38,018 nt of DNA from a virus: IMG/VR virus record IMGVR_UViG_3300014839_001404, positions 1 through 38,018 of that record. One strand, 5' to 3'. Below are positions 9,725 through 35,594 of the stretch, in pieces; position 1 is the stretch's first letter; every line of letters starts with the position of its first letter. Below the pieces are notes generated by a model. It was not told the origin of the DNA, did no database searches, and saw nothing but the letters and a program-made list of their open reading frames with translations. Made by a program: the position numbers and the translations under genes.

Positions 9725-9733
9725 GATATTACC

Positions 9734-12381: not shown

Positions 12382-12432
12382 GATTGATCTCCTTGAAAAT
12401 TGTTTGTGAATGTGAATAATCTCGAAAAGATT

Positions 12433-12457
12433 GCCCTCTCCGTGAAATGGAGAGGGC
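12433..12457 (-). terminator. Hairpin between the two major head genes
   Basis: A perfect 9-bp stem (GCCCTCTCC/GGAGAGGGC) with a 7-base loop. On the minus strand it is followed by AATCTTTTC, only a short T run. It may act as a weak terminator or as an mRNA-stabilising structure that tunes decoration against capsid protein. Confidence 0.55.
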
Positions 12458-12469
12458 TTGGGAAAAGGA

Positions 12470-13435: not shown

Positions 13436-13521
13436 GGTTCAAACTCCTTTTAAATTGTTGTTGAAACAAACTTTTGGCTTATTCATTTCCTCCGACTTTA
13501 GGCGGAGGATGGAGCGGCCCC

Positions 13522-15917: not shown

Positions 15918-15942
15918 GGCTCGATGTCCTTTGTTCAAATTG

Positions 15943-21692: not shown

Positions 21693-21704
21693 AGGAGAAC
21701 GACT

Positions 21705-22658
21705 ATGCAGGCACAACAATCGACGCGCATCGGGTTGGTGGAACAGGCAAGGATCTCAACCGGCAATGCGGATGAAGTAAAAAAGAAATTGAACCAGCTC
21801 TTGGCCGAGCAGGAAATTTCCCAGCGCGATATTGCAAAATTCACCGGCTACTCCACCTCTGTCATCTCGCAAGTACTGTCCGACAATTACGAAGGCGACG
21901 TTGCAAAGATGGAAGATGGGCTCGCGCGCTTCTACAGAAACTGGCTCGCAAAAAACGCCGTCATCGAAACTGGCGTGGTGAAAGAAATCAACAATACAAT
22001 GTTGATGGCGTGGAAGCGGAAAGAAATCGCACGCATCACCGGACCGTTCGGTCGCGGAAAATCAAAAGCGACGTCACGCTTCGTTGCGTTGAATTCCGAC
22101 TACGCGTGCTACGTGGAACTTACATCAACGACATCTGCCGTGTCCATCCTACACCGGATCGCCGAGGCATTGAATTGTGAAGCGCAAATGTCCGGCAGCG
22201 CAGACGACAAACTCAACACGATCATCCGCAACCTCCAGCGCAAACCACGTCTGCTCGTCATCGACGAGGCGGATAACTTAAAGCCGAGGACGCTCGCGGT
22301 TTTGAAAGATATTCATGGCGGCGAATCTGCGGAACGCTGCGCAATCATATTGATCGGCACCGATCGGTTGAAGAAGCTGCTACTGGATCCCGCGCTCGGC
22401 TATCTGCGCCGGCGCATACGCATCGCGCGCGAGATCGGAGACATAACGCAGGCCGAGGCGAAGAAGATCCTTGAGATGTGGCCGAACAGCCTGGACAATG
22501 AGGACCTGAAAGAGATGTGGGCATGGAGCGTCCGGAAGTTCGGCGTTGCGTCGCTCGTGGCTTTAATGACGCGCGGATATGACTGCATGCAGATGCAAGA
22601 TAAAAAAAAGATCGATTCCGAATGCATTGAAATGGCGTACACATATTTGATCGACTAA
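21705..22658 (+). CDS. MuB-type transposition ATPase
   Basis: 317 residues, with AAAGGAG upstream. It is an AAA+ target-selection ATPase working with the transposase. N-terminal HTH of the MuB/Cro kind at about residues 36-60 (ISQRDIAKFTGYSTSVISQVL); Walker A GPFGRGKS at 113-120; Walker B LLVIDEAD at 183-190; sensor-1-like IILIGTD; arginine-rich LRRRIRIAREIG. Twelve bases separate it from the transposase. The combination of HTH plus AAA_22-type ATPase behind a DDE transposase is diagnostic for Mu-like phages. Confidence 0.95.
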   Translation: MQAQQSTRIGLVEQARISTGNADEVKKKLNQLLAEQEISQRDIAKFTGYSTSVISQVLSDNYEGDVAKMEDGLARFYRNWLAKNAVIETGVVKEINNTMLMAWKRKEIARITGPFGRGKSKATSRFVALNSDYACYVELTSTTSAVSILHRIAEALNCEAQMSGSADDKLNTIIRNLQRKPRLLVIDEADNLKPRTLAVLKDIHGGESAERCAIILIGTDRLKKLLLDPALGYLRRRIRIAREIGDITQAEAKKILEMWPNSLDNEDLKEMWAWSVRKFGVASLVALMTRGYDCMQMQDKKKIDSECIEMAYTYLID

Positions 22659-22695
22659 CATCTGCGCTAAACCAGAGAAATCGGCGTAATCAAAA

Positions 22696-23175
22696 ATGAC
22701 ACGCAGCGAATTAAACCAGAAAATCGGCGCTCTTGCCTTCGGTCGATTAAAACTCGACGAAGAGTTCTATCGCACGATCGTCGCCTCAATCGATCCGAAG
22801 AGTGAAGGCCATGTCACTCACTGCGACGACGAGCATGCAAATCTTGTGTTGATCGCCCTGCGCCGACTCGCCGATAAGAATCCGCCGCATGAAAAGAATG
22901 TTGCACAACAGAAATTCATCGCGCGGCTGATGGATTACCTGAAATGGAATTGGAAGACCACTGCCGAGTTCTGCGAACGCCAGACAGGGAAAAAAACAAC
23001 GCGGGCGTGCACCGCGTTCGAGTTGACAAAAACCGTAAACGGAATGATCGCCATCATCGATCATGACATTGCAACCGGACGGATTGCGCTCTCGCCGGCG
23101 GCTCTCGAACAATATCGACATTACACGCAACATCACCGCAGCAAACAATCTACAACAAACAAGGAGGCAGCATGA
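22696..23175 (+). CDS. GemA-like protein (Mu gp16, DUF1018)
   Basis: 159 residues. The first half (KIGALAFGRLKLDEEFYRTIVASI) and the C-terminal part (QQKFIARLMDYLKWNWKTTAEFCERQTGK, then TAFELTKTVNGMIAIIDHDI) fit the DUF1018/GemA family of transposable phages. GemA of Mu affects host gene expression; its exact role here is not known. It overlaps the next start by four bases. Confidence 0.8.
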   Translation: MTRSELNQKIGALAFGRLKLDEEFYRTIVASIDPKSEGHVTHCDDEHANLVLIALRRLADKNPPHEKNVAQQKFIARLMDYLKWNWKTTAEFCERQTGKKTTRACTAFELTKTVNGMIAIIDHDIATGRIALSPAALEQYRHYTQHHRSKQSTTNKEAA

Positions 23176-23507
23176 ACACAGTTCTCGTTCTTCTTTGCGC
23201 CATAGCGATCATCGCAGTTATTCTCATCCGTCGCCGTCGGGCGCGGGTTCCGAACGACAATTATTTGGTAGACCAACTTTGCAACGAGGCAAGAACAAAA
23301 TATCCGGGCATGTCGCTCCAGGATGCTCTCGGCGCTCTCTACCTGGACTATTACGATAGAACCTTGATCGCGCGCGGCAAGGGCGAAGATGTGACGGAGC
23401 TGATCGAGGCACGGAAGATCATCGCACAGGAGCGCGCGTTTCTTATCGTGCTCACCGCGCAATTGGAAACCGAAAGCAGCTTTTCGATTGAAAAATCTTC
23501 TGCGTAA
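23172..23507 (+). CDS. Small membrane-anchored protein
   Basis: 111 residues, preceded by AGGAGG. One N-terminal membrane helix (LVLLCAIAIIAVILI) followed by RRRRARV, so the C-terminal 85 residues, mostly helical and acidic, would lie in the cytoplasm. No family recognised. Membrane-anchored early phage proteins can affect superinfection, but this is only a possibility. Confidence 0.6.
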   Translation: MNTVLVLLCAIAIIAVILIRRRRARVPNDNYLVDQLCNEARTKYPGMSLQDALGALYLDYYDRTLIARGKGEDVTELIEARKIIAQERAFLIVLTAQLETESSFSIEKSSA

Positions 23508-23559
23508 TCCACTAATCAGCTTAATCTGCGATTCAATCTGCGATCAGAAAGGATGACTT

Positions 23560-23766
23560 ATGGATGCCAGCAAGATGAACAAAGTCAACAAAATCACGAG
23601 CGAGATCACGAAAGCCGTGGCGCCGCTCGGCGTGTCGCCCGACTTTTTCGATTTGAAAGACGGCAAAGGTCCGGATGGATTCAGAATGACGGTCAGCTTT
23701 GGACCGAAGGGAGTTGAAGACAAGACCGGAGATATGTTCGCCCGAGAACATCCTGCGGCAGAATGA
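23560..23766 (+). CDS. Small hypothetical protein
   Basis: 68 residues with an AAAGGA site. Basic helical start (NKVNKITSEITKAVAPLG) and a short beta part (GFRMTVSFGPKG). No family recognised; in line with the early operon. Confidence 0.55.
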   Translation: MDASKMNKVNKITSEITKAVAPLGVSPDFFDLKDGKGPDGFRMTVSFGPKGVEDKTGDMFAREHPAAE

Positions 23767-23785
23767 TCGGGAACCAGGAGTATTT

Positions 23786-23983
23786 ATGCCGAACGCAAAA
23801 GAAAAAATTGACATGGCAAAGCGCAACGGAATCCGCGATGCGAAAAAGCAACTAAGTTGCGATCCCAAGAGACACTTTTATAAGTCGCATACCATCGCGG
23901 AGACTATCTATAGAGTCTACTACGAAAAACAGAACGCGCATCAATTATCAATTTCAAAACAAACAGAAAGCATTCAGTCATGA
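23786..23983 (+). CDS. Small basic protein
   Basis: 65 residues from ATG 23786 with CAGGAG eight bases upstream; a longer frame starts inside the previous gene. Charged and Lys-rich, with one Cys. Its stop overlaps the next ATG. No family recognised. Confidence 0.5.
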   Translation: MPNAKEKIDMAKRNGIRDAKKQLSCDPKRHFYKSHTIAETIYRVYYEKQNAHQLSISKQTESIQS

Positions 23984-24615
23984 AGCAAGATCAAAAGACA
24001 CCGTCCGATACTCCGGGGAATCCTGGATACATGAAAGACCATCGCGGGCGCCTCATTCCAACCGATCTCATAAAGCCGATCGATAAAAAACGCGACGCCG
24101 TCGTCGCAAAGATCGCTGAAGAAGCACTGGTATTTTCCGCGCAACTGGCAGACTTTAAAGCGCGCGCAATGGCGCTCGTAACCGGCTTCATGCAGTCCTC
24201 CGCACGCGAGCACGGGGTAAGTTTCGGAGGCGTGAAGGGCAACGTCACGCTGATGAGCTTCGGCGGCGGATACAAAGTACAGATTGCGATCGCCGACCGC
24301 ATCATCTTCGACGAGCGCCTGCAGATTGCAAAGCAATTGATCGACACCTGCATCAAGCGCTGGACCGAAGGTAGCAGAAGCGAGATCCGCGTGCTCATCG
24401 ACAGCGCGTTTGAAGTAGACAAAACCGGCAAGATCAACACCGAGCGCATCCTTGGATTGCGTCGATTGAAGATCACCGACAAAAAATGGGTGGAGGCTAT
24501 GAGCGTCATCAGCGACAGCGTTCAGGTTGCCAGCTCGAAATCTTACATCCGAATGTACAAGCGGGACGAGAAGGGCGAATACAAACAGATCCTTCTTGAC
24601 TTCGCGTCGTTGTGA
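23980..24615 (+). CDS. DUF3164 protein
   Basis: 211 residues typical of the DUF3164 family of transposable phages: GYMKDHRGRLIPTDLIKP at the start, LADFKARAMALV, GNVTLMSFGGGYKVQIA, then IRVLIDSAFEVDKTGKIN, RILGLRRLKITDKKW and a C-terminal SKSYIRMYKRDEKGEY. The family is nearly always found in the early operons of Mu-like phages; molecular function unknown. Confidence 0.85.
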   Translation: MKQDQKTPSDTPGNPGYMKDHRGRLIPTDLIKPIDKKRDAVVAKIAEEALVFSAQLADFKARAMALVTGFMQSSAREHGVSFGGVKGNVTLMSFGGGYKVQIAIADRIIFDERLQIAKQLIDTCIKRWTEGSRSEIRVLIDSAFEVDKTGKINTERILGLRRLKITDKKWVEAMSVISDSVQVASSKSYIRMYKRDEKGEYKQILLDFASL

Positions 24616-24622
24616 CTCGGGC

Positions 24623-24687
24623 AGGCGCGATGTGGTATCCCCGAAGGGTCATAGCCTTTGGGGCCGGGTTCGACGCCCGGCACGCCT
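24623..24687 (+). tRNA. tRNA-like element, anticodon-like CAT, short D region
   Basis: 65 bases with three tRNA features in the right order. Acceptor: AGGCGCG pairs with CACGCCT (six of seven). Anticodon arm: GAAGG/CCTTT with the seven-base loop GTCATAG, which puts CAT in the anticodon place after U33. T arm: CCGGG/CCCGG with loop TTCGACG, matching the GGTTCGANNCC consensus. The space for the D arm is only 11 bases, too short for a normal D stem-loop, and no CCA is encoded. It could be a degraded tRNA, a D-armless tRNA-like RNA, or just paired hairpins. Confidence 0.45.
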
Positions 24688-24705
24688 CTATAAAAGAGTA
24701 CAATT

Positions 24706-25071
24706 ATGTCTGAAGATCAGTTAAAAAAAGTGTGTGATCAGGCCGGCGTGCAATACGTTGGCATCCAGTCGGGACGCGACGTCCAGTACATCCTTTTCAA
24801 CGACGTGATCACCGGTTCAACACTCGCCGTCGAGAAAAAAGGCTTCAGCAATGCAAAGATACAGGCAAGGGTCGCTTTTCACAGAAAGAAGTTCGGCGAT
24901 GATGTAATTTTTTTGTCGGATATTTTTGACGCAATCAAATTCATTACGCGCAAGCTGGTCATCCCAAGGGGAATATTATTGGATGCCTCCCGAGCAGCGG
25001 TTGCTGTCATAATGCAACATCTTAAAGAGCAAAAGGAGCAAGGCAATGGCACGTCAGAAGATGCAGCCTGA
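24706..25071 (+). CDS. Hypothetical early protein
   Basis: 121 residues, alpha/beta (VQYVGIQSGRDVQYILFND; VEKKGFSNAKIQARVAFHRKKFGDD), no family recognised. The next gene begins inside its 3' end (26-base overlap), with its AAGGAG site in this gene. Confidence 0.55.
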   Translation: MSEDQLKKVCDQAGVQYVGIQSGRDVQYILFNDVITGSTLAVEKKGFSNAKIQARVAFHRKKFGDDVIFLSDIFDAIKFITRKLVIPRGILLDASRAAVAVIMQHLKEQKEQGNGTSEDAA

Positions 25072-25621
25072 ATATTTTTTGAACCGCATCCGCGAGTTTG
25101 AAAAAAAGAACGGCCGGCCGCCGCGCTCCGATGATTTCAACGGTCCGTTTCATAAAAACATTATGAAGCATTTCGGATCATGGCAAAAAGCAATTGATGC
25201 TGCGCTCCATGTCAAAGTAAATTACGGCCGTAAAAGCGATGCGGAGCTGCTGAAGGAGATCTCCGACTTTGTCCTCGCCAATAAACGGATTCCGAACCAC
25301 TCTGAACTTAGAAATGAACAGCAGCTGAGCGATCATTTTGGATCATACGCTGCAGCAATCGAAACGGCTATCGGGTTCAATCCGCAGACGGCGATACTCA
25401 GAGCGCTGCAGCAATTAACTCTCAATACATCGTATGCCTCTCACGCTGAGATTGCCTCCGAGATGCAGCGTTGCGGCGATCCAATAACTCAGCCACAGAT
25501 CCGGGGCCTGCTTAGTCTGCTCGGACAGCGCGGACTTGTGGACGTCCGTCGTGGTGATCGCATACGGCTGTATCGGCTCACTTCCGAGGGCCGGAAAATG
25601 TTGAAAAAGGAGGATCTATGA
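25046..25621 (+). CDS. Regulator with two HNH-associated repeats and winged helix
   Basis: 191 residues. Two copies of the homing-endonuclease-associated repeat (about residues 10-52, FLNRIREFEKKNGRPPRSDD.. SWQKAIDAAL, and 67-110, LLKEISDFVLANKRIPNHSEL..YAAAIETAI), each a small DNA-binding helical unit. The last 75 residues look like a winged helix (TQPQIRGLLSLLGQRGLVDVRRGD; YRLTSEGRKML). No nuclease motif is present, so it is probably a DNA-binding regulator. Its place late in the early operon suits a middle/late activator such as Mor or C of Mu, but it is not homologous to these as far as I can see. Confidence 0.65.
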   Translation: MARQKMQPEYFLNRIREFEKKNGRPPRSDDFNGPFHKNIMKHFGSWQKAIDAALHVKVNYGRKSDAELLKEISDFVLANKRIPNHSELRNEQQLSDHFGSYAAAIETAIGFNPQTAILRALQQLTLNTSYASHAEIASEMQRCGDPITQPQIRGLLSLLGQRGLVDVRRGDRIRLYRLTSEGRKMLKKEDL

Positions 25622-25737
25622 TATGGTTGGCAGGCGTCGCAGGATATGCGTTAGCAGTATGGCTCTTCCTTCGCTTCTTCCACTTCATTTCTGAAGTCGA
25701 TGAGGACGCCGAAAGAAACTGGGCGTTACGAAAGTAA
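25618..25737 (+). CDS. Small single-span membrane protein
   Basis: 39 residues, ATG overlapping the preceding stop (ATGA) and with AAGGAG eight bases upstream. Residues 3-24 form one membrane helix (WLAGVAGYALAVWLFLRFF); the tail is acidic (SEVDEDAERN). Function unknown; size and topology fit a phage-encoded membrane microprotein. Confidence 0.6.
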   Translation: MIWLAGVAGYALAVWLFLRFFHFISEVDEDAERNWALRK

Positions 25738-25749
25738 TCGAGGTTCCGC

Positions 25750-26166
25750 ATGCCTGAATATCGTCGAAATAGATTGCTGGAGGAAAAGGTTGAGAGAGAT
25801 GCAACCTTTGGGTTGCCGCTCTTCGGCAAAGCCTCCACACCAAGTGCGCGTATGATGGAATCCGCGCCGGCCAGCATCGCCCTGGCAACCGACACGCGGA
25901 AGCTGTCGCATATCCTTATGAAATTCAATAAGCAAGATCTGAACCGGAAGCAACGGATCGTGTTCGGCGTCATAAAAGAGCATGGTCCGGTAACAAACGA
26001 GGAGATCAACAAGATCCTGGGATGGAACGCGATCAACCGGGTGGTTGGACGCACATTCGAACTGCGGTCCTACGGCATGGATAAAAAAGCACTCGTGGTT
26101 TTCGCCGGCAAGCGCGCCTGCAGCGTGACCGGAAATGTCGCATCTACGTGGATGGTCAATGAATGA
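25750..26166 (+). CDS. Winged-helix transcription regulator
   Basis: 138 residues. The C-terminal half has a winged helix: NRKQRIVFGVIKEHGPVTNEEINKILGW..RVVGRTFELRSYGM, ending in a wing. The N-terminal 60 residues are a flexible arm rich in charged residues. Together with the gene before it, it is a candidate for the switch from early to late transcription. No family name is claimed. Confidence 0.6.
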   Translation: MPEYRRNRLLEEKVERDATFGLPLFGKASTPSARMMESAPASIALATDTRKLSHILMKFNKQDLNRKQRIVFGVIKEHGPVTNEEINKILGWNAINRVVGRTFELRSYGMDKKALVVFAGKRACSVTGNVASTWMVNE

Positions 26167-26197
26167 TTTGAAGTCAGCGAAGAAGGAGGAGAACACA

Positions 26198-26467
26198 ATG
26201 ATTGAGCTCAATGAGAATGTCATCGCACCGCAGAGCAGAAAAGAACTGATGATTGAAATAATTACGAAGGCATTCCCATATCCAAAACAAATAACGAAAT
26301 GGAATATAACCGTCGAAGCCAATGCGATAAGATTCACATGGAGAGAAAGCCGTTTTCGCGTTGACATAAATTCGCTGATGGTTGAGGCGGTAGATGATGG
26401 ATTTTTGCGTCACGATAACATTGCCATTCTCGCCGAAAGTCTAATTAAGAGTGAAGCGCGTTTTTAG
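26198..26467 (+). CDS. Hypothetical protein before the cassette array
   Basis: 89 residues from ATG 26198, with a strong AAGGAGGAG upstream; longer in-frame starts would overlap the previous gene. Alpha/beta (ITKWNITVEANAIRFTWRESRFRVDI). It is the last ordinary phage gene before the first attC-like site. No family recognised. Confidence 0.55.
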   Translation: MIELNENVIAPQSRKELMIEIITKAFPYPKQITKWNITVEANAIRFTWRESRFRVDINSLMVEAVDDGFLRHDNIAILAESLIKSEARF

Positions 26468-26499
26468 AATCGGCAATTAAAAAAGGAGATGAAATATGG

Positions 26500-26572
26500 A
26501 ACAACGAGAAACGAACTATGAAAAAATCAAGCAAAGCAACGCGAGCGAATCGGGTTGAGCGGGTTGTTAGCA
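26500..26572 (+). other. attC-like site A (first, 5' half degenerate)
   Basis: The 3' half is well conserved: GGGTTGAGCGGGTTGTTAGCA, L' followed by R' GTTAGCA at 26566-26572, as in the other sites. The 5' half has CAACGAGA but lacks the GCTAACC inner stem, so it cannot fold as the others do. It marks the start of the array. It may be a decayed attC or an attI-like entry site. Confidence 0.6.
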
Positions 26573-26727
26573 GTCAAAAACTCTCGCATGAAACAAGGCA
26601 AGATCTTTGTGACTATGTCGCAAAGTTGCGGCGCGGATTGACGTTTGATCTGCCATTAACAACGGCACGATCTATTAGGCGCGACATCAGATTGATTGAG
26701 AAGTTTTTGCAGTGCCAACGAGACTAA
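26518..26727 (+). CDS. Cassette 1 protein, begins inside site A
   Basis: 69 residues. The reading frame starts upstream of L' and runs through L'-R', which encodes the peptide VERVVS, then continues in the cassette (SHETRQDLCDYVAKLRRGL, a helical region). It ends at TAA inside the next attC (CAACGAGACTAA). ATG 26518 has no clear ribosome site. A better-placed ATG at 26496 (after AAGGAG) reads another frame and stops after 20 codons at the TGA in L'. No family recognised. Confidence 0.5.
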   Translation: MKKSSKATRANRVERVVSSQKLSHETRQDLCDYVAKLRRGLTFDLPLTTARSIRRDIRLIEKFLQCQRD

Positions 26728-26773
26728 GATAAGCGGCGCGATTTACAGCTTCCGCCTTGATCGGTTGTTGGAA
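26713..26773 (+). other. attC site B
   Basis: R'' TGCCAAC (26713-26719), GAGACTAA, inner stem GAT-AAG-CGG pairing with CCG-c-CTT-G-ATC, then R' GTTGGAA (26767-26773). The unpaired G in L' is present. R'' pairs with site A's R' (GTTAGCA) at six of seven places. Confidence 0.85.
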
Positions 26774-26798
26774 TGCGCGTAATTAAAAAAGGAACACC

Positions 26799-26999
26799 AT
26801 GAAATTAGCACAATGCCGCAAGTGTCCATTCTTCCAGCGCCCAGCATGGCATTCGGGATATACCGGAAAAAGTGGATATGAAACAGGGCACACGTGCAAG
26901 CATAAGAACGAAGCGTTGCGACATATAGAGACATGTGAGCTTGAGGGGAACAAGGCGGCGCAGATGGAAAGACTAATCGAATTTCAACGGATGCAATAG
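26799..26999 (+). CDS. Cassette 2 protein, small Cys/His-rich (zinc-binding-like)
   Basis: 66 residues with AAGGA upstream. CRKCPFF near the start, CKHK in the middle and a third Cys (HIETCEL) give a C-x2-C, C-x-H, C pattern likely to bind zinc. It is the only gene of the 325-bp cassette between sites B and C. No named family; a DNA- or protein-binding role is possible. Confidence 0.6.
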   Translation: MKLAQCRKCPFFQRPAWHSGYTGKSGYETGHTCKHKNEALRHIETCELEGNKAAQMERLIEFQRMQ

Positions 27000-27003
27000 C
27001 GTC

Positions 27004-27098
27004 ATTCCAACGTCAGAGCTAACTTGCAAGCGAAGGAGATGAACTTATGAGTAAGAAAAAACCAAACGAAGCACGTCAAGTTGAGAGGGTTGTTAGCT
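27004..27098 (+). other. attC site C (contains ribosome site and start codon of the next gene)
   Basis: R'' ATTCCAAC (27004-27011) is the exact reverse complement of GTTGGAAT at the start of the cassette it closes. Inner stem GCT-AACTTG pairs with CAAGTT-G-AGA. R' GTTAGCT is at 27092-27098. The loop holds GAAGGAG and the ATG of the next cassette's gene. Confidence 0.9.
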
Positions 27099-27289
27099 GG
27101 CGCGATGGCGTGGCGATAGTCTCTGCAATGAGAAAACAAATAAAATTGTTACAGTGGTTCCACAGCCATACGACGGGTATTTATGAGGCGTGCGATGGAG
27201 CGAACAAGAAGCATCTGCAAGACATGGCAGAAATGTTCAACAGCCAGTTACGGGCAATAAATAGCACGATACCGAAAGAGTTTAGATGA
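27047..27289 (+). CDS. Cassette 3 protein, starts in attC loop
   Basis: 80 residues. The ATG lies in the loop of site C, eight bases after GAAGGAG, and the frame runs through L'-R' (VERVVS) into cassette 3. The remainder is helical (AIVSAMRKQIKLLQWFHSH, LQDMAEMFNSQLRAI). No family recognised. The N-terminal 18 residues are encoded by the upstream attC, so they would change if the cassette moved. Confidence 0.6.
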   Translation: MSKKKPNEARQVERVVSWRDGVAIVSAMRKQIKLLQWFHSHTTGIYEACDGANKKHLQDMAEMFNSQLRAINSTIPKEFR

Positions 27290-27294
27290 GCGCA

Positions 27295-27354
27295 CAGCTA
27301 ACGAGACTAAGCTAACCTGCGCGTATTGTGCGACAGGTTGAGCGGTTGTTGTGC
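27295..27354 (+). other. attC site D
   Basis: R'' CAGCTAAC (27295-27302) is the exact reverse complement of GTTAGCTG at the start of cassette 3. GAGACTAA follows, then GCT-AACCTG pairing with CAGGTT-G-AGC, and R' GTTGTGC (27348-27354). Confidence 0.92.
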
Positions 27355-27427
27355 GAGAAGCCTTTTAATTGCAGACAAATGATAAACGTGTAGAAACCAA
27401 AACATTGTGCGAGCGAATTAGGATGGA

Positions 27428-27849
27428 GCATCGGCAATGCTCACCCAAAAAGGAGAAGAATCAATGAAAATTCTGACAGGCGGACACCGCTACGAACTCG
27501 AAAACTTCGAGAACAAAGATGCAGATGGACAAATTTTGCAATTCATCCACAAAGAAAAGCTACCAGAGGCGCGGGAGTATATGGAAATCCCGGTTCTCTC
27601 GGAGAATGAGAAATACGACGAAAGCCACCTCTTCACGGTTCGAGATGGCACGACCAACGAGGAAGTTCTTGCGATGATGATTGATCGGATGAAGTTCCTG
27701 CAAGCAAAATTTCCATGCAGAGAAAATGCAATTGTCATCACAAAGCTCGAAGAGTCTTTGATGTGGCTCGAAAAACGCACCGCCGAACGAATGGCGCGTG
27801 GCGTTGAAGGAAAATGCGAAGCGTAATTAACCAAAGGCATTGCCGATGC
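27428..27849. repeat. 13-bp inverted repeat flanking the cassette 4 gene
   Basis: GCATCGGCAATGC (27428-27440) and its exact reverse complement (27837-27849) flank the cassette 4 gene. Each arm can also form a small hairpin. Confidence 0.7.
27464..27826 (+). CDS. Cassette 4 protein, Acb2/Tad1-like (putative anti-defence)
   Basis: 120 residues from ATG 27464 with AAGGAG eight bases upstream. The C-terminal 55 residues form a helical hairpin (NEEVLAMMIDRMKFLQAKFP, CRENAIVITKLEESLMWLEK) ending RTAERMARGVEGK. I recall this ending from phage proteins annotated as Acb2/Tad1 hairpin domain proteins. Members of that group bind cyclic nucleotide or ADP-ribose-type signals and block CBASS or Thoeris immunity. 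An N-terminal part of about 60 residues precedes it (HRYELENFENKDADGQ). Resemblance is from memory, not from a search. It is the only gene in its cassette, so an anti-defence role carried by a mobile cassette is plausible. Confidence 0.6.
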   Translation: MKILTGGHRYELENFENKDADGQILQFIHKEKLPEAREYMEIPVLSENEKYDESHLFTVRDGTTNEEVLAMMIDRMKFLQAKFPCRENAIVITKLEESLMWLEKRTAERMARGVEGKCEA

Positions 27850-27851
27850 CC

Positions 27852-27910
27852 GCACAACGAGACTAAGTTAAGCTGGGAGCGAAGCGACTCAGCTTGAACG
27901 GTGGTTAGGG
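27852..27910 (+). other. attC site E
   Basis: R'' GCACAAC (27852-27858; eight bases CGCACAAC) is the exact reverse complement of GTTGTGCG at the start of cassette 4. GAGACTAA follows, then GTT-AAGCTG pairing with CAGCTT-G-AAC, and R' GTTAGGG (27904-27910). Confidence 0.92.
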
Positions 27911-27976
27911 CTGCGGAGCTGAAAATAAAAACGCCCCACAAAATTGCAGGGCGTTGAAAAACAAAACCGGCGGCGG

Positions 27977-28153
27977 TTACTTAGGCTTGAGATCATGTTT
28001 GTCGCAAAAATCAGTGAGAGCAATGATTGCAGCGTGTGAGACATTGTGGTATTTGGGGGCGGCCTTTTCGACGGTCGCTTCAAACCGTGCGAGTAATTTT
28101 GTCGGGATGCGCACGGAGAACATCTTAATGTCTGAGGTGAGTTGCTTAGACAT
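27977..28153 (-). CDS. Cassette 5: ribbon-helix-helix protein
   Basis: 58 residues from ATG 28153, with AGGAGG upstream. FSVRIPTKLLARFEATVEKAA followed by a second helix (SHAAIIALTDFCDKHD) is a typical ribbon-helix-helix (Arc/MetJ/CopG type) DNA-binding fold. It is the last gene of a leftward three-gene unit. It probably binds the palindromes in that unit's promoter. This resembles an antitoxin or an autoregulator; no toxin is recognised. Confidence 0.65.
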   Translation of the reverse strand: MSKQLTSDIKMFSVRIPTKLLARFEATVEKAAPKYHNVSHAAIIALTDFCDKHDLKPK

Positions 28154-28343
28154 TGGATACCTCCTCGTATCGGTAGCCAAGTTCACACTCAGCGTAAATC
28201 TCTCCCTCTGTTGCCTCGCCCTTATTGAGTCGATCGGTCTGATCTGGCAAGAGTGTATAGCTGTAAGACGTTTTGCCCTCGTCGAGCACGTTGACAGTAA
28301 GCGTCTTATTATCATCGGACAATTTGAGCGTGTAGTGCGACAT
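28146..28343 (-). CDS. Cassette 5: small beta-rich protein
   Basis: 65 residues with an AGGAGG-type site; overlaps the next gene by eight bases. Strands SHYTLKLSDDNKTLTVNVLDE and TSYSYTLLPDQTD, then an acidic end. No family recognised. As the middle gene of an autoregulated-looking unit it might be the partner of the RHH protein. Confidence 0.5.
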   Translation of the reverse strand: MSHYTLKLSDDNKTLTVNVLDEGKTSYSYTLLPDQTDRLNKGEATEGEIYAECELGYRYEEVSNV

Positions 28344-28351
28344 ATATCCTC

Positions 28352-28579
28352 CTATTGGTTAAACATGATAGATCGGATTGACTTAATCGACTCTTTTGAG
28401 CCGTCGCCGTTTGCGAGATTGCGTGCATACGTCTCTGCTGTTTTGGCATTATCAAATGGCATATATGATGCAACCTCATTGCGAGAGTCGGACACGGACC
28501 ACATCTCTTCTTTTTTGGCGGTAAAATCGTTTGCGTCAGAGTGCTCGATTGTTACTGTTTTGATCGTTGTCTGTGTCAT
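28352..28579 (-). CDS. Cassette 5: first gene of the leftward unit
   Basis: 75 residues with AGGAG upstream (ACAGGAGATGAGACAATG). A strand-helix protein (TIKTVTIEHSDANDF; NAKTAETYARNLANG). No family recognised. Transcribed from the promoter at 28628-28656. Confidence 0.5.
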   Translation of the reverse strand: MTQTTIKTVTIEHSDANDFTAKKEEMWSVSDSRNEVASYMPFDNAKTAETYARNLANGDGSKESIKSIRSIMFNQ

Positions 28580-28620
28580 TGTCTCATCTCCTGTCTTGTG
28601 TTGTTATTGTCTCAATCAAC

Positions 28621-28656
28621 TGTATACAATGTATGACTATTGTAATACAATGTCAA
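28621..28656 (-). promoter_or_regulatory. Cassette 5 promoter with palindromes
   Basis: TTGACA (28656-28651), 17-base spacer, TACATT (28633-28628). The spacer holds the perfect 13-bp palindrome ATTGTAATACAAT (28639-28651) and a second palindrome TGTATACA (28621-28628) lies at the start region. This suggests binding by the RHH protein. Confidence 0.8.
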
Positions 28657-28771
28657 GAGAAATCTTTTATGTTTTCATTTTGTTTGGTCTAACCAATAAA
28701 TACAGGGTGTTTATGAGCGTCAAAAATCACGAAATATGCACGAGCCGCCGCCGTGGAGTCTGCTCCTGCAA

Positions 28772-28868
28772 GCCCTAACGAGACTAAGCTAACCCTTGCG
28801 GCGATTCAAGGCAGGTCAAAAATGGAAAATACCCTGCCGAGCCGCATAGGGTTGAGCGGGTGTTGGGC
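28772..28868 (+). other. attC site F
   Basis: R'' GCCCTAAC (28772-28779; nine bases with the A before it) is the exact reverse complement of GTTAGGGCT at the start of cassette 5. GAGACTAA, then GCT-AACCC with GGGTT-G-AGC and a second inner stem GCGGC/GCCGC. R' GTTGGGC is at 28862-28868. Confidence 0.92.
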
Positions 28869-28889
28869 GGTGGAAACAAAGGAGAACAC

Positions 28890-29105
28890 ATGCCAAAAGA
28901 TGCAGACTGGATTTGTGAAACAACGTGCATTGCGACAAAGACGTTATTAGTAAAAGCCACGACGCGAAAAGAGGCGATGCAAAAGTTGAAGGATGGCGAA
29001 GCCGAGGGGATTGACGTGGACTATGGGGGAATCAGGGCGCGAAGGGTAATTTGTCGAGATGGACGTGTGCGGCGTAAAACAACAATCCGCCCAACAAGCA
29101 GTTAA
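28890..29105 (+). CDS. Cassette 6 protein
   Basis: 71 residues, ATG 28890 with AAAGGAG upstream. Alpha/beta with three Cys (DWICETTCIATKTLLVKATT, RRVICRDGRV). The helix TRKEAMQKLKDGEAEGIDVD resembles DpnD/PcfM-type small folds. It ends at TAA inside the following partial attC. No firm family. Confidence 0.6.
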   Translation: MPKDADWICETTCIATKTLLVKATTRKEAMQKLKDGEAEGIDVDYGGIRARRVICRDGRVRRKTTIRPTSS

Positions 29106-29109
29106 CCGG
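29087..29109 (+). other. attC site G, 5' half only
   Basis: R'' CCGCCCAAC (29087-29095) is the exact reverse complement of GTTGGGCGG at the start of cassette 6. A GTTAACCGG left arm follows. No matching right arm or GTTRRRY is seen downstream, so the array ends in a truncated site. Confidence 0.75.
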
Positions 29110-29174
29110 AAAAAACCATATAGCTCCACAATGGCAAATATCTATTACACCATATTGAGTCAATTTAAAGCGAA

Positions 29175-29378
29175 ATGGGAACGTCGTTATCCCGGACGGC
29201 AGTTTTTCCCCCGGCGCCGAAGCCACAGAGTTCGCTCAGACGGTGCACAAAGTGTGAGAGCTGGTACCGGGTGGATGAGGAGCACTCGTGCCACGAGAAA
29301 ATGCAATACGATCACAGGAACAGGCCCGCCACGGCCGTTGGCGATGTGATAGACACATTTAGAGGAGCCGACAAATGA
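29175..29378 (+). CDS. Small Cys-rich protein, start or frame uncertain
   Basis: 67 residues. CTKCESWYRVDEEHSC could bind zinc. Its stop overlaps the next gene's ATG (ATGA), favouring this frame. The ATG at 29175 has no ribosome site. Another frame from ATG 29131 (MANIYYTILSQFK) could join this one if a base were gained or lost in the TTTTTCCCCC run near 29204. It may be a broken gene. Confidence 0.45.
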   Translation: MGTSLSRTAVFPPAPKPQSSLRRCTKCESWYRVDEEHSCHEKMQYDHRNRPATAVGDVIDTFRGADK

Positions 29379-29716
29379 GAAAAATCCCGATTAAAGAACT
29401 AAGACATGCAGTGCTGAATGGATTGAAGCAGAAGCTGATGGCCGGCAAACGGGCGGAGATCTCTTTTGGAGAACTGTGGAAGATATGTTCTCTCGCCGGC
29501 CCGTTGCTCTTCATTCCTCTTAACTCTGAGCTTCAAAGAGAGCGATTCACAATAGCCTTTTTTTTAAATATTAAGTTTCTTTCATCCGTCAATTTCATCG
29601 GCGTCAATACCGTCGAAAATGGAGAAAGGATTGAATCTATATTCCTAACGACTGAAGGAGAACGATACATTGGTGACGTCGAGTTTGTGATGCCGGTCCC
29701 ACGTGAAATGGACTGA
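29375..29716 (+). CDS. Hypothetical protein
   Basis: 113 residues with GGAG seven bases upstream. Helical start (IPIKELRHAVLNGLKQKLMAGKRAEI ends a helix-turn), hydrophobic middle (FTIAFFLNIKFLSSVNFIG), beta end. Coupled to the previous gene by ATGA. No family recognised. Confidence 0.5.
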   Translation: MRKIPIKELRHAVLNGLKQKLMAGKRAEISFGELWKICSLAGPLLFIPLNSELQRERFTIAFFLNIKFLSSVNFIGVNTVENGERIESIFLTTEGERYIGDVEFVMPVPREMD

Positions 29717-29784
29717 AGGATTCAATGCCGCTTGCTATTCATGTTCTACTTAAATAAATTATAATGTTCAAATCAAGTTCAAAT

Positions 29785-29868
29785 CAGCACACAACGTTGT
29801 CCGGCGGAATATTGCCGGGCAACACTCTCTTTGGCGCGAGCCTTGGAGGAGTTTTGCATTGTGTGCTG
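29785..29868 (+). ncRNA. Structured RNA candidate, three-way junction
   Basis: Outer arms CAGCACACAA (29785-29794) and TTGTGTGCTG (29859-29868) are perfectly complementary. Inside are a 9-bp hairpin TTGTCCGGC/GCCGGGCAA (29797-29805, 29814-29822) and a short GGC-GCGA-GCC hairpin. No gene is evident between 29717 and 29959 apart from a doubtful frame. It may be a small RNA, or a decayed attC-like hairpin. Confidence 0.5.
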
Positions 29869-29959
29869 AACCCGAACAAGTGTTGCTCGGCTTTCTTTGT
29901 CTATGAACGTTGCTACTTAATCGAACATATACATTTCACAATAAGCACAAGGGGTGTGA

Positions 29960-30211
29960 ATGTCTACGATTGAGCAGCAGAGCGAATGCGAACAAAAGTT
30001 TTCTGAGCTGGTAGAACTGCTCACAAAAATAGGACAATGTGATAAACCCTGCAAAGTCGATGTCAATTTTGATGGAGCGAAATTTGCGTCATGGCAGGTG
30101 CATGCGTCCAATTTGACGGCGGATGAATGGAACCCGGCCCTTCAAACAAAAAGAGTGACGGGAGGAATTAGCGCCGAAAATACGATGGCGAAGTTGCATC
30201 GAGGAGAATAA
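29960..30211 (+). CDS. Hypothetical protein
   Basis: 83 residues with AAGGGG five bases upstream. Helical start (CEQKFSELVELLTKIG) and a beta part (KVDVNFDGAKFASWQVHASN). Three Cys. No family recognised. It precedes the late leader. Confidence 0.5.
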   Translation: MSTIEQQSECEQKFSELVELLTKIGQCDKPCKVDVNFDGAKFASWQVHASNLTADEWNPALQTKRVTGGISAENTMAKLHRGE

Positions 30212-30235
30212 GATAGATAGCGGTTTTGATAAATA

Positions 30236-30317
30236 ATTTCGCGGTTATCCGATAACAAGGAGCCCCGAACTGGTAGGACAGGCATCATTGTCTGTCATTC
30301 CTTTCGGGGCATTTTTA
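30236..30317 (+). promoter_or_regulatory. Structured late leader, copy 1 (packaging operon)
   Basis: CGCGG, the perfect palindrome GTTATCCGATAAC (30244-30256), AAGGAG, lower stem GCCCCGAA/TTCGGGGC (30262-30269, 30303-30310), upper stem GACAGGCA/TGTCTGTC (30277-30284, 30289-30296, one G-U pair), then ATTTTTATT. Same layout as the copies ahead of the leftward late genes. The start codon place has CTG instead of ATG. Confidence 0.8.
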
Positions 30318-30331
30318 TTGCAGGCAATCTC

Positions 30332-30778
30332 ATGGCATACGAAGAAGAAAAAGCTGTTGCTCAATTAATGTTCGAGCAAGATCGGAAGTCGGCAAAAGAT
30401 ATTGCAACACAAATTGGCGTGCCCTTCCAGACAGTCTATCGCTGGATAAAAGACGGCAAATGGAAGCAATCGAAGGTGGAGCGCCTCTTGAATAAAGTTG
30501 AGCAGCTTAAAAATCTGCGCGAACTGGTCGACAAACAGACGCAGGAGCTGCTCTCTTCGGATAATCCAGACCAGGCAAAACTCAATGTCCTTCGAGGCTA
30601 TCAGAGACTTCTCGCCGAATTTGAGAAGACGGTCGACATGCGCGGGACGATACTGCAGGGCATGGATGCGTTCGTAAAATTTATGCGCAGTGAGCATCCG
30701 GAGGGAGTTGATACCCTTCTTCCATATTTCCAGGAATTCCCGACTTGGGTCAGAAAGAACTATCCGGAAATTAAGTGA
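30332..30778 (+). CDS. Small terminase subunit-like protein
   Basis: 148 residues. An N-terminal HTH (SAKDIATQIGVPFQTVYRWIKDGKWKQ) followed by coiled helix (LLNKVEQLKNLRELVDKQTQELL) and a helical C-terminus. This is the make-up of small terminases and of Mu gp27-like (DUF1804) proteins. It recognises phage DNA for packaging. Its TGA overlaps the large-subunit ATG. Confidence 0.75.
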   Translation: MAYEEEKAVAQLMFEQDRKSAKDIATQIGVPFQTVYRWIKDGKWKQSKVERLLNKVEQLKNLRELVDKQTQELLSSDNPDQAKLNVLRGYQRLLAEFEKTVDMRGTILQGMDAFVKFMRSEHPEGVDTLLPYFQEFPTWVRKNYPEIK

Positions 30779-32430
30779 TGGCAAACCTCAATCAAAAGCA
30801 ATTCGAACAGCAGTTTGAACAACTTGTAAAGAGTATCCGGCAGGAAGCGACTCCGTTCCTGAACGATTCCACCGAAAAAAAGATAGCCCGGAAGAAACGC
30901 GCACTCGCCGATCCATTTGCTTTTGCTGCATTCTATTTTCCGCACTACATCCAGCTGCGCGACGGATTTGAAAAAGATTGCTGGAAAAATCCGGATGCAA
31001 AGATTGATTGGGTGAAGATGGGCTTCGCGGAATGTCACGCGGAATTTTTCAAACTAACAGCCGTCAGGAATAAACTCATTCTGTTGGCCGGCTATTCCGA
31101 ATCTGCAAAGGATACGCTGATCGCAAAGATCGACGTCATTAAAAAGTGCATTACTGAAGACATTTGGTATCACATCCACGTCGCTTCGACGCACGATCGC
31201 GCTGCGTCGAAGCTCACGCCGCTTAGATTGGAATTTGAACATAATGAGCGACTGATCAGCGACTTCGGCAATCTCGTCGGATCCGTAAAATGGGAACAGG
31301 ATGAATTCATTTTAAGCAACGGCCGCAAGTTGCATGGTATGGGCCGTGACGAGACTATGCGCAGCGCTGAAAATGCCGGGCACCGGCCGGACTGGCTGAT
31401 TCTGAACGATCTGTGGGATCCGCTGCGCGAGAAGAATCCCGCGATTATAAAAGAGACCGTCGAGATCATCAAACAAGATTACGTTAAGCGTGTGAACACT
31501 CCGCGCTGGGGTGGCATCCTTCTATTCAACTATGTTTCCAAGCAAAGTCCGGAACATGAGCTCGTCCTCGAGCACGAAAGGCTCGGCTTTGAGTTGCACA
31601 TATACCGTGCGCTTGTGTACAACGAAAAGAGAACTGTCGAACAAAGAGAGATCGCTCATCAGTGCAGGCTCAAGATATATTCCGATGTCGAGAGGTCGGA
31701 CTGGGAATTCCGCCATACGACGCTAAACCTGCTTGCAGAGCGTGTCGCGGATCCGGATACCTTCGATGCCGAACGGATGATGCGGCCGAAGGATAGAAAG
31801 GACGCAAAATTTAAAGATAACGACTTCCATTTTTATCAACTCTCTATTATGAAGCGAGTCGGCATGACCTGCTACACATGGGTCGATCCGAGCGTGAAAA
31901 TAACCGCCGACTACAAGGCGATCATAACGCTTGGCGTGCCGCAGCAACAATTCTTTGAATGCGTCGTCATCAACGCATGGATCCGGCAGGCGTCGGTGGA
32001 TGAAATGTTAGAAGAAACATTTCGCGACTTTGCTGAGAACAAATCCCGCGTCGTCGGTTACGAGGGCGTGGCCGCCCAGGCATTTTTGGAACGCGAATAT
32101 CTCCGCATGATGCGCATAAAGGGACCGCTTCCCTTCTACATGCCCGATCATGTAGAATCAAAAGACTCCGACATCGAGAATTTGATACCGATCGTCCGGC
32201 GCGGGACTATGAAATTCGATGTATCGCAAGGCGATCAAGGTTTGCTTATACGACAGTTCAAGGGCTATCCGGATAGAACGCAGGTATCGCGTGGCGGCAT
32301 CGGCGATGACGGCATCGATGCCTGCGGAAAATGTTTCAAACTCATTCAACTGTTTCCACCGGGCGCGCAAAATGTAGAATATAAATCCGGTTCAAGGCGC
32401 GAGGCGCGATTCAAAAAGGGAGCATTCTAA
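30778..32430 (+). CDS. Large terminase subunit with altered Walker motifs
   Basis: 550 residues from ATG 30778 (a GTG directly before is possible). Terminase_6-like ATPase followed by nuclease. The P-loop place reads LLAGYSESAKDT (about residues 102-113), not the usual GxxxxGK[ST]; the Walker B place reads WLILNDLWD (about 206-214), with Asn-Asp in place of Asp-Glu/Asp-Asp. The nuclease part has CYTWVDPSVKITADYKAI (first Asp) and GDDGIDACGK near the C-terminus. In the usual order: small subunit, large subunit, portal. Confidence 0.85.
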   Translation: MANLNQKQFEQQFEQLVKSIRQEATPFLNDSTEKKIARKKRALADPFAFAAFYFPHYIQLRDGFEKDCWKNPDAKIDWVKMGFAECHAEFFKLTAVRNKLILLAGYSESAKDTLIAKIDVIKKCITEDIWYHIHVASTHDRAASKLTPLRLEFEHNERLISDFGNLVGSVKWEQDEFILSNGRKLHGMGRDETMRSAENAGHRPDWLILNDLWDPLREKNPAIIKETVEIIKQDYVKRVNTPRWGGILLFNYVSKQSPEHELVLEHERLGFELHIYRALVYNEKRTVEQREIAHQCRLKIYSDVERSDWEFRHTTLNLLAERVADPDTFDAERMMRPKDRKDAKFKDNDFHFYQLSIMKRVGMTCYTWVDPSVKITADYKAIITLGVPQQQFFECVVINAWIRQASVDEMLEETFRDFAENKSRVVGYEGVAAQAFLEREYLRMMRIKGPLPFYMPDHVESKDSDIENLIPIVRRGTMKFDVSQGDQGLLIRQFKGYPDRTQVSRGGIGDDGIDACGKCFKLIQLFPPGAQNVEYKSGSRREARFKKGAF

Positions 32431-32645
32431 TGAGACGGTGCAAGGCGTTTATTATCGCTGTGATCTCTCTATTTAATCGTGTCACGTTCAAAAGAAAACA
32501 GCGGGTTACAATCAATTTTAAGCGCAGACATAGAATCGTACTGGCTTTTCTCGATCTATTTTTTGATGCGCGCCGACTGCCGCATGATAAAATCCAATTA
32601 CGATTGAGGAAGCGACGAAAAGCAAACTACGAGCGCGGCATTTGA
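32430..32645 (+). CDS. Small very basic protein
   Basis: 71 residues; ATG overlaps the terminase stop (TAATG) and its TGA overlaps the next start. Arg/Lys-rich throughout (KRKQRVTINFKRRHRIV), with a hydrophobic start. No family recognised. It may bind DNA or serve mainly for coupling. Confidence 0.5.
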   Translation: MRRCKAFIIAVISLFNRVTFKRKQRVTINFKRRHRIVLAFLDLFFDARRLPHDKIQLRLRKRRKANYERGI

Positions 32646-33268
32646 TGAAAGACTATTTGAAATACGCGAGTTACATCATTGTTGCCGTCACAATCGCGTA
32701 CATTTGCGTCGTGGTGAAGGCTTGCGGATCGAGCGAGCATTATGGTGACATCGTTGTCATACCTGCGGACTCAGCGTTTTTACCTATTGTGAAGCGGGGC
32801 TATAGGCCAAATCCGTTGTCATTTAAAAAGGTATCGAAGCCGGTTGCAAAGCTCCCGAAAGGGATGCGGGAAAGCGATGTCGCGAGAACGATTGTGGTTG
32901 TGAACCATACAAAGGCGAGCACCGCGTTGATCATTGAGACCAAATCCGGCAAGGTGTTCGTTCCCAAAACAACCGACAGTCTTTCCGTTCTCGTCACGGA
33001 ATATCTGCCGGCTGTCGTTTCACTCAATCTGAATGCTGGTGTTGGCGTTTCGCTCGATCTCTCTGCGCGATTTTCGCCGTCGGCATCGCTCTCGTTTCTG
33101 AAATGGTACGGATTTGTCGATGCGCCGGTCATCGTCGCAGATCTGCGCGGTCTCGCTGTCGGCGTCGGTATCAAACTCTATCATGACATTTATACCATAC
33201 CGGCGATCAAATGGGAATATAATTCGCTGACCAAATCAATCATTCTAAATGTGAGTTATCAATTATGA
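32645..33268 (+). CDS. Membrane-anchored hypothetical protein
   Basis: 207 residues from ATG 32645 (a TTG at 32642 is possible). A single membrane segment at residues 8-27 (ASYIIVAVTIAYICVVVKAC), then a beta-rich exported or periplasmic part with a Pro-rich stretch and repeated SLSFLKWYG-type strands. It lies between terminase and portal, where no conserved structural gene is expected. It could be a lysis (spanin-like) or lysogenic-conversion factor; neither can be shown. Confidence 0.55.
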   Translation: MKDYLKYASYIIVAVTIAYICVVVKACGSSEHYGDIVVIPADSAFLPIVKRGYRPNPLSFKKVSKPVAKLPKGMRESDVARTIVVVNHTKASTALIIETKSGKVFVPKTTDSLSVLVTEYLPAVVSLNLNAGVGVSLDLSARFSPSASLSFLKWYGFVDAPVIVADLRGLAVGVGIKLYHDIYTIPAIKWEYNSLTKSIILNVSYQL

Positions 33269-34626
33269 AATTCTTCGACAAAACAAAGCTGGCCGCAAAG
33301 GCCGTCGCCGCGTCGTTTCGAGAACGTCCTGACACGAATGAAATCTCAACCATATCATTGTTCAATCGTTGGGGCACATATCCTTCGAGTGGTCTCACTC
33401 CCGAATCGCTGACCACCATCTTGAAGGAGGCCGATCAGGGTAATATCTCCAGGCAGATGGAACTGATGAGTGAGATCGAGCAGAAGGATCCTCACATATT
33501 CAGTTGCTATAATAGACGTAAGCGTTCAGTTCTGAAAAGAAAATATCAACTCATTGGTGCCGATACCAAAGACGCATCATTCAAGAAGCATGCCGAATAT
33601 GCCGACAGGGTTGTTTCGGGTATAAAGGATTTTCAGGACGTTCGCTTCAATGCGCTGGATGCCGTTGGGAAGGCATTCTCCGCGCAGCAAATAATGTGGA
33701 AAGTTGACGCGGCCAACAACGTCTATATCGACCGGTTTGAATCGTTGCATCAAAAAAATTTCCGCGCCGGGATTATTAGCGATCCAAAGTCCGACCTGAA
33801 TATCCTTCGGCGCCTGACTGATGAAGAACTGTCCGACGGCGTTGAGCTCGAAGAAAACAAGTGGTTCATACCGATAGTGAAAGCCGTCTCCGGCAACATC
33901 GGATCGTCTGGACTGTTGCGAACGAACACATGGTATTACCTTTTCAAGAACTTTAATGTGAAGGCGTGGGTACAGTTTGCGGAATTGTACGGATTGCCCT
34001 TACGTATTGGGAAATATGGCGTGGGTGCGAGTGAAAAAGAGAAGAATGATTTGCTCCGGGCGCTGCAATCCATTGCACAAGACGCATCAGCCACAATCTC
34101 AGAGAATACAAAGATCGAATTTGTTGAAGCGATGTCAAAGGCTGCATCGTTCGATTCTTTTGAAAAACTCGCGGACTATTGCGACAAGCAAAACTCAAAA
34201 GCCATTCTCGGCCACAGTGCTTCGATGGATTCAACGGCAGGAAGACTTGGAGGAGAACAAAGTGCCGAAGATGCAATCTATGACATTATCGAGTCGGATG
34301 CATTCGCCTTTGACATGGCATTCAACGAGCAGGTAATCAAACCCTTGATCATATTTCAATTTGGCCGACAACAATATTATCCGAAATTTCAGACGATCGT
34401 TTCGCCTCCCAAGGATCGAAAGGCCGAATTGGATCTCATGAATAGCTTCCAACAGCCGCTGGCAAAGCAGTTTTATTATGACAATGTCGGGTTTCCCATC
34501 CCGGAGCCAGGCGCGGACGTTGTGATGCCGGCTCCTCAAAATGCACCTAGTGGCAATCTCTTCGGCGGCTCAGGCGCGATTCCGCCAAAGCAAGTAACGG
34601 CGAGCGACAATAAAAAAAAAGTCTGA
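33265..34626 (+). CDS. Portal protein, Mu gp29-like (DUF935)
   Basis: 453 residues, coupled to the gene before (ATGA). Forms the head portal ring. Matches DUF935: DPHIFSCYNRRKRSVLKRKYQLIG; FNALDAVGKAFSAQQIMW; FKNFNVKAWVQFAELYGLPLRIGKY; and SKAILGHSASMDSTAGRLGGEQ. The last codons are nine A then GTC TGA. The -1 frame continues in the MuF protein, which has no good start codon, so a portal-MuF fusion of about 776 residues is likely made in part. Confidence 0.9.
   Translation: MKFFDKTKLAAKAVAASFRERPDTNEISTISLFNRWGTYPSSGLTPESLTTILKEADQGNISRQMELMSEIEQKDPHIFSCYNRRKRSVLKRKYQLIGADTKDASFKKHAEYADRVVSGIKDFQDVRFNALDAVGKAFSAQQIMWKVDAANNVYIDRFESLHQKNFRAGIISDPKSDLNILRRLTDEELSDGVELEENKWFIPIVKAVSGNIGSSGLLRTNTWYYLFKNFNVKAWVQFAELYGLPLRIGKYGVGASEKEKNDLLRALQSIAQDASATISENTKIEFVEAMSKAASFDSFEKLADYCDKQNSKAILGHSASMDSTAGRLGGEQSAEDAIYDIIESDAFAFDMAFNEQVIKPLIIFQFGRQQYYPKFQTIVSPPKDRKAELDLMNSFQQPLAKQFYYDNVGFPIPEPGADVVMPAPQNAPSGNLFGGSGAIPPKQVTASDNKKKV
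34612..34620 (+). promoter_or_regulatory. -1 frameshift site (A9) at the portal end
   Basis: Nine A in frame as AAA AAA AAA before GTC TGA. An A_AAA_AAA heptamer at 34614-34620 would place ribosomes in the MuF frame, which is open across the site from 34614. No standard ATG or GTG starts the MuF frame before residue 40. Confidence 0.65.
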
Positions 34627-35594
34627 CCGGCTTTGACGATCAGCAGTACCTGCAGACGCTCGACGATCTTGCGACAAATCAGATAGCGGAATCTTCTGAC
34701 ATTTACGGCCCACTTATAACCGCCTTCGAAGACTTGCTCGGATCGGCCGCATCTGCTGGGGAGTTCAGGCAGTCGCTCGACAAAGGCTTAATCTCACCGG
34801 AGTTTATTCGCAATTTGTCGGATAAATTGATCAGCGCCAGTCACGCGGCCGACGCATTGGGTAGAAGTTGTGTGGTCCGAAAGGACAAATTCTTCAGCGA
34901 TAAAAAAAAGGTGGTCTCTGCAAAATTCAAAATTGGCAAATATTTTGCACGAGCCGATGGTCTTAAATGGATAGTGGCGGACGACAATCAAAATGTGCAG
35001 ATTTCATTCAATCTCACGCCGGAACAGGCGGTCGAATATTTTCGCCGGAAGGCATTTTGGATCAGCGGCGTCGAGGACCAGCGCTTTATCGACGCCGTGA
35101 AATCAGAACTTGATCGCGTCCTATCGGAAGGAGAAACCTATGACCAATTTTCGGACTCATTTAAGATATTCTTCAATGAATATGGTATCACTCCAAATAA
35201 TCCAATTCGTCTTGACACAATTTTCCGGACAAACCTCTTCACGGCATATACTGCTGGGCAGGTAAAGCAGGTTGAAGAAGTAACGGATCGCTTTCCCATA
35301 TGGCGCTACATTGCAGTGCATGATAATCGCACGCGTCTTTCTCATGCTATGCTAAGTAACAAATTTTTTCGAAGCGGCCCTTACCCACCCATTAGTTATA
35401 ATTGCAGATGCACTCCGCAATTCATCCATGAGCTTCAATTACCGCAACTCGGAGAGATTCAGGTCTATGATTCCATTTATGACTTGATCGATCCTTCCGA
35501 GGTCATCGATTTCCTGAGTAATAATACCTTCGATCAGTGGATCAGCGACAATCCGGTTTCACCGGACATTCAAAACATTATTGATCAGGGGTAA
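34620..35594 (+). CDS. MuF head morphogenesis protein, no usual start
   Basis: The open frame runs from the A9 site to TAA at 35594, 324 codons. The first possible start, TTG 34734, lacks a ribosome site and would cut off a conserved-looking start (LTGFDDQQYLQTLDDLATN). The rest fits the MuF (gpF) family: helical middle with EFRQSLDKG and YFRRKAFWISGVEDQRF, then a stretch beginning with DTIFRTNLFTAYTAGQ, WRYIAVHDNRTRLSHAML, and the metal-binding-like YNCRCTP motif. The function in Mu is in head assembly and DNA ejection. The frame relation to the portal implies a fused or frameshifted product, or a single-base sequence error in A9. Confidence 0.8.
   Translation, partial: SLTGFDDQQYLQTLDDLATNQIAESSDIYGPLITAFEDLLGSAASAGEFRQSLDKGLISPEFIRNLSDKLISASHAADALGRSCVVRKDKFFSDKKKVVSAKFKIGKYFARADGLKWIVADDNQNVQISFNLTPEQAVEYFRRKAFWISGVEDQRFIDAVKSELDRVLSEGETYDQFSDSFKIFFNEYGITPNNPIRLDTIFRTNLFTAYTAGQVKQVEEVTDRFPIWRYIAVHDNRTRLSHAMLSNKFFRSGPYPPISYNCRCTPQFIHELQLPQLGEIQVYDSIYDLIDPSEVIDFLSNNTFDQWISDNPVSPDIQNIIDQG

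Follow-up and report, generated by a model that had tools for sequence, protein, structure and literature searches.

The window analyzed here, meaning the whole stretch of DNA, is a complete 38,018-base virus record from IMG/VR without attached host genome. Its genes are those of a Mu-like transposable phage, with a MuA-like transposase and a MuB-like ATPase (19854 to 22658, plus strand; assigned by family matches and by comparison with relatives), a small and a large terminase, a Mu portal, and protein F (30332 to 35594, plus strand), as well as a protease and a gpT capsid protein. The capsid/tail module (1 to 15938, minus strand) is divergent from the early and packaging genes (19854 to 35594, plus strand), unlike the arrangement in Mu. 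The same divergent order in several relatives (L123, L128 to L130, L132, and L133) shows that it is characteristic of the clade rather than an artifact of assembly. A histidine kinase gene with HisKA_2, HAMP, and CHASE8 domains is situated beyond protein F (35921 to 37495). This region is probably flanking host DNA, and the kinase gene, the sole likely host gene in the record, would provide a handle on the identity of the host.

Seven relatives of the phage were found with an alignment of TerL and an alignment of MuA, the MuA identities ranging from 49 to 73%. Alignments were needed, as scans of viral contigs with single TerL or MuA proteins found no relative. The genes muA, muB, and gemA, together with g191 and g138, are present in the same order in all seven, followed by g83 (six of the seven) and the terminase genes. 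In the window, g138 (25750 to 26166, plus strand; 34 to 50% identity in the seven relatives) and g83 (29960 to 30211, plus strand; preceding the terminase genes) are the conserved left and right flanks of a slot that spans about 0.1 to 5 kb in the relatives and whose contents differ among those inspected. We note that g191 (25046 to 25621) harbors homing-endonuclease associated repeats (HNH_repeat), and that the slot of relative L033 includes a similar second ORF (4636 to 5142). The slot of another relative, L119, contains two ORFs (3778 to 5487 and 5925 to 6491), an ATPase-like ORF that weakly matches mad8 of MADS in PADLOC and one that appears transposase-like by eye.

In the phage studied here, the slot harbors an array of six cassettes (26506 to 29095), delimited by R box pairing, covariation, folds, bulge polarity, and boundaries, and directed by its attC polarity along the minus strand. 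The original prediction had placed seven sites at 26.5 to 29.1 kb, and all seven were located there. On the minus strand, these are a half-site, G, consisting of the R' box of the first cassette (29087 to 29095); the complete sites F (28771 to 28870, with a long terminal structure), E (27850 to 27912), D (27294 to 27356), C (27003 to 27100), and B (26711 to 26775); and a decayed attC, site A, belonging to the last cassette (26503 to 26574). The crossovers are positioned after plus-strand positions 26505, 26719, 27011, 27302, 27858, 28779, and 29095, and the array is read from 29095 to 26506. Sites B to F share one architecture, in which a hairpin body lies between a box ending in AAC and a GTT box. 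When the circular attCs were rebuilt on the minus-strand reading by joining the body of one site to the next R', sites B to F folded in the canonical manner, with z scores of -2.5, -1.4, -5.6, -3.2, and -5.8, respectively, against base shuffles, and the decayed site A gave -2.0.

The boxes at the two ends of each cassette pair with one another, at 7, 9, 8, 8, 9, and 9 of 9 bases, the first value referring to the boxes of sites A and B and the last to half-site G and the R'' of site F. Exact pairing extends from the GTT core over 3 bases in the cassette between A and B and over 9, 8, 8, 8, and at least 9 bases in the others (scored as 3, 9, 8, 8, 9, and 9). The native assignment of starts to ends is the unique best among 720, with a run length of 46 against 44 for the next and 51 matches against 49. 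R box columns 1 to 6 covary, with two to four Watson-Crick pair types per column. The complementarity of R'' and R' within cassettes that the original prediction had pointed out is thus real: in each cassette, the R' at the start pairs with the R'' at the end. Paired and covarying boxes of this kind are the mark of circularising units, and neither chance nor ordinary terminators explain them.

A purpose-written scanner for canonical attC sites, which recovers the known attCs of class 1 integrons and of Shewanella phage M16-3 at a background of about 0.3 hits per 10 kb per strand, detected sites C, E, and F on the minus strand of the array region and nothing on the plus strand; sites B and D fail its box criteria. 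A pattern describing the site family matched three sites in the window and none in 100 shuffles. The same pattern found nothing in viral contigs. A single match in a genome contig was devoid of the AAC box and was taken as chance, and the host integron was not found. A covariance model built from the reference attCs was dropped, as its alignment misplaced L'. With five complete attC sites in 2.6 kb, where at least two with R and L boxes and a bulged hairpin are needed, and no integron integrase in the 38-kb record (no TIGR02249 or IntI1 match), the cluster is a set of six genuine integron cassettes without an integrase (CALIN), for which recombination by IntI is predicted. As no intI was present in the record, it does not represent a complete integron. 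The proposal that a Mu-like phage carries an integrase-less array between its early genes and its packaging genes is therefore upheld.

Comparing related phages at the same slot, as had been proposed, revealed a shared gene order and a variable slot, and none of the seven relatives carried different cassettes there. The attC scanner gave only isolated hits at background level in the seven relatives (0.21 per 10 kb per strand), none of them in the slot, and an IntI1 search of the same seven provided no match, although it does find the integrase of the control record Rctr41k. Because the slot is variable and the relatives do not have an attC cluster, the array was probably added in this lineage, at a place where accessory genes vary.

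Five of the six cassettes carry genes on the plus strand, along phage transcription. Four of these include one ORF each, without a family: ORF A (26518 to 26727, 69 amino acids; stop codon inside attC B), ORF B (26799 to 26999, 66 amino acids), ORF C (27047 to 27289, 80 amino acids; starting inside attC C, with its start codon in the terminal loop), and ORF F1 (28890 to 29105, 71 amino acids counted from ATG; its final codons extend into the phage flank). The cassette at 27859 to 28779 instead holds three minus-strand ORFs in the sense of the attC, E1 (27977 to 28156), E2 (28146 to 28343), and E3 (28352 to 28579). It includes terminator-like hairpins (27978 to 27930) and a promoter-like site (28656 to 28628), a type of site that was no commoner in the promoter scan overall than in shuffles. 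ORFs F1 and B had zero matches in phage records, E3 had no relative in viral contigs, and PADLOC gave no family match for any cassette ORF.

The remaining cassette (27303 to 27858) encodes a 120-amino-acid protein (27464 to 27826, plus strand) of the Tad1 family of anti-Thoeris/anti-CBASS sponges, a gene not mentioned in the original prediction. The protein matches the Pfam hairpin domain PF24729 just over the cutoff and phrog_2428 with an E value of 8e-22, and its comparison with Tad1 proteins of solved structure (PDB) gave E values of 2e-13 and, by profile, 7e-17. With a model of the protein (pLDDT of 72), the five best Foldseek hits were all Tad1 chains. Sequence and fold homology thus both place the protein among the Tad1 proteins. 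It shares the C-terminal helical hairpin of Tad1 (PDB 7uav and 8kbb), and N-terminal strands are predicted; it differs from these proteins in being encoded in an integron cassette. An attC motif was not found near the Tad1 homologs in any of 26 viral contigs screened. Tad1 sequesters gcADPR and cyclic nucleotides (PMC12043709). The cassette product is a probable Tad1-like anti-immunity protein, which would capture the signaling nucleotides of the Thoeris and CBASS defences in the course of infection.

The polarity of the array was examined through the extrahelical base of the L stem. Among 17 attCs used as references, which came from few lineages (class 1 integrons and Shewanella phage M16-3), the extrahelical base was best placed in L'' in 15, with one tie and one site preferring L'. 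When read on the minus strand, the L stem of all five complete sites of the window (B to F) is perfect and has a single extrahelical C, located in L''. Extrahelical-base polarity, the join of the flanks described below, and the location of the decay together indicate that the array lies on the minus strand, with most genes antisense to the attC, and the direction given in the original prediction has to be reversed. On the minus reading, all decay is confined to one site, and the plus strand would be the strand that is folded. The five full sites that had been described stand, but the labels at the ends do not: the "truncated last site," G, corresponds to the entrance of the array, and the "degenerate first site," A, to the attC of the last cassette.

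The flanks of the array, when joined at the crossovers, read ATG GAA CAA CAA GCA GTT, a sequence that follows a ribosome-binding site and is in frame with an ORF of 87 codons. The start of this gene (ATG GAA CAA C, 26496 to 26505, plus strand), recognized from the flank join, is preceded by a Shine-Dalgarno sequence, AAAAAAGGAGATG, and its putative continuation extends from 29096 to 29378 (plus strand), with a change of reading frame near 29215. Codon usage supports the joined frame over 29098 to 29215, and beyond that another frame scores best. We infer that an attG-like GTT following codon 3 marks the point at which a phage gene, likewise not mentioned in the original prediction, was interrupted, and that this gene has decayed since. 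This step is put forward with caution, because an in-frame join would occur by chance one time in three and because BLAST of the pieces against the relatives gave chance-level hits only, with no homolog detected. By eye, the pieces bear a likeness to zinc-ribbon genes in L119 and L127.

The explanation that we consider best on the whole, and hold with reasonable confidence, is that these are genuine cassettes in a minus-strand array, inserted at an attG-like GTT by an integrase acting in trans, with a Tad1-like cargo. The first cassette would have been recombined by a host integrase into a GTT that happened to follow codon 3 of the phage gene, and further cassettes would then have entered beside the first, with half-site G as the attG-like junction. 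Five cassettes may have been retained because their genes lie along phage transcription and are read by the phage operon, and the sixth would be expressed from its own promoter-like site. The array would reach new hosts through transposition and infection. Cassette exchange, anti-defence activity, and the part played by a host integrase are all presumed from the DNA.

Alternatively, the cassettes may have been transferred en bloc from a chromosomal array to the phage through homologous or illegitimate recombination, without an integrase. All sites are of one family, only one event would be needed for all six cassettes, and such routes have been proposed by Qi et al. (2023; PMC9892861) for phage CALINs. 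Against a transfer of this kind, both ends of the array coincide with predicted crossover bases and the flanks joined there form a continuous frame, and we regard it as unlikely.

The possibility that the array lies on the plus strand, with A as a first, partly lost site and G as a truncated last one, rests on gene direction, since it would bring the five plus-strand genes into the usual sense of the attC. On the minus reading, the genes run against attC polarity in five of the six cassettes, and the usual criterion of a gene in attC sense applies to one of the six. Genes antisense to the attC are unusual for integrons; a gene in attC sense is usual but not strictly required. The left half-site profiles alone also lean toward the plus strand at several sites; the half-site profiles by themselves are ambiguous on polarity and do not settle the strand. 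A plus-strand array, however, would put the bulge in L' at all five sites, would require a truncated site at G and decay in two places, and would lose the join of the flanks. It would also have ORFs A and C begin 45 to 48 bases ahead of their cassette, whereas on the minus reading both start inside their own cassettes and the ORFs in general keep to their cassettes, crossing the boundaries at most by a stop codon or by their final few codons. We consider the plus-strand array improbable. That the repeats merely separate small phage genes, as terminators or hairpins with a regulatory function, which the small ORFs of unknown function and an Rfam search of the array with no family matching at gathering scores might suggest, is hardly credible, as the boxes pair with covariation across cassettes, 200 to 900 bases apart, and not within a site, which terminators do not.

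Returning to the minus-strand array entered by cassettes in trans, its junction invites comparison with attG insertion. Integron cassettes have reportedly been found by Loot et al. in 2024 to insert at such sites, consisting of a bare GTT outside attI, in bacterial genomes. The junction at a bare GTT is common to both; here it would lie in a phage gene, as judged from the sequence alone.

CALINs in phages are not a new kind of element, as screening of 10,705 phage genomes has uncovered 17 of them (TJE1, P12002L, PH101, and others) and IntI1 was shown to recombine five of the six sites that were assayed (Qi et al., 2023; PMC9892861). The array studied here shares with these an attC cluster, small cassettes, and the absence of an integrase from the phage genome. 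It differs in being carried by a Mu-like transposable phage, in its Tad1-like cargo (the cargo noted for the phage CALINs is DNA methyltransferases), in its mostly antisense genes, and in its defined insertion point in a variable slot. Shewanella prophage vB_SspM_M16-3, with a complete integron and a CALIN, has in common with our phage the attC bulge in L'' and the presence of cassettes in a prophage, but it is P2-like, encodes an integron integrase, and carries genes in attC sense. Our literature search found no paper uniting integron cassettes with anti-CBASS.

Integrons are familiar as carriers of resistance genes from one bacterium to another. A transposable phage whose array has clear limits, a probable anti-immunity gene, and an insertion point that can be resolved would link cassette capture to phage counter-defence. 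The present case suggests that phages may obtain useful genes from integrons, much as bacteria obtain resistance genes. As a speculative extension, the slot could act as an integrase-less dock for cassettes, fed in trans by hosts, in which antisense cassettes, useless from an integron promoter, are selected via phage transcription. The phages would in this way have a supply of counter-defence genes that can be renewed from the pool of bacterial integrons. Since the model names its sites, strand, and crossover bases, it can be tested directly.

Two further records deserve mention. In Polaribacter phage P12002L, the scanner placed an attC on the plus strand of the known attC region (L126, 30005 to 30059), and the annotated neighboring methyltransferase genes are on the minus strand, possibly another case of genes antisense to the attC. 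Virus Rctr41k (KX853513.1; L113, 4680 to 5678), from a methane-oxidising/anammox enrichment, encodes a phage protein that is 45% identical to IntI1 and is annotated merely as integrase-like.
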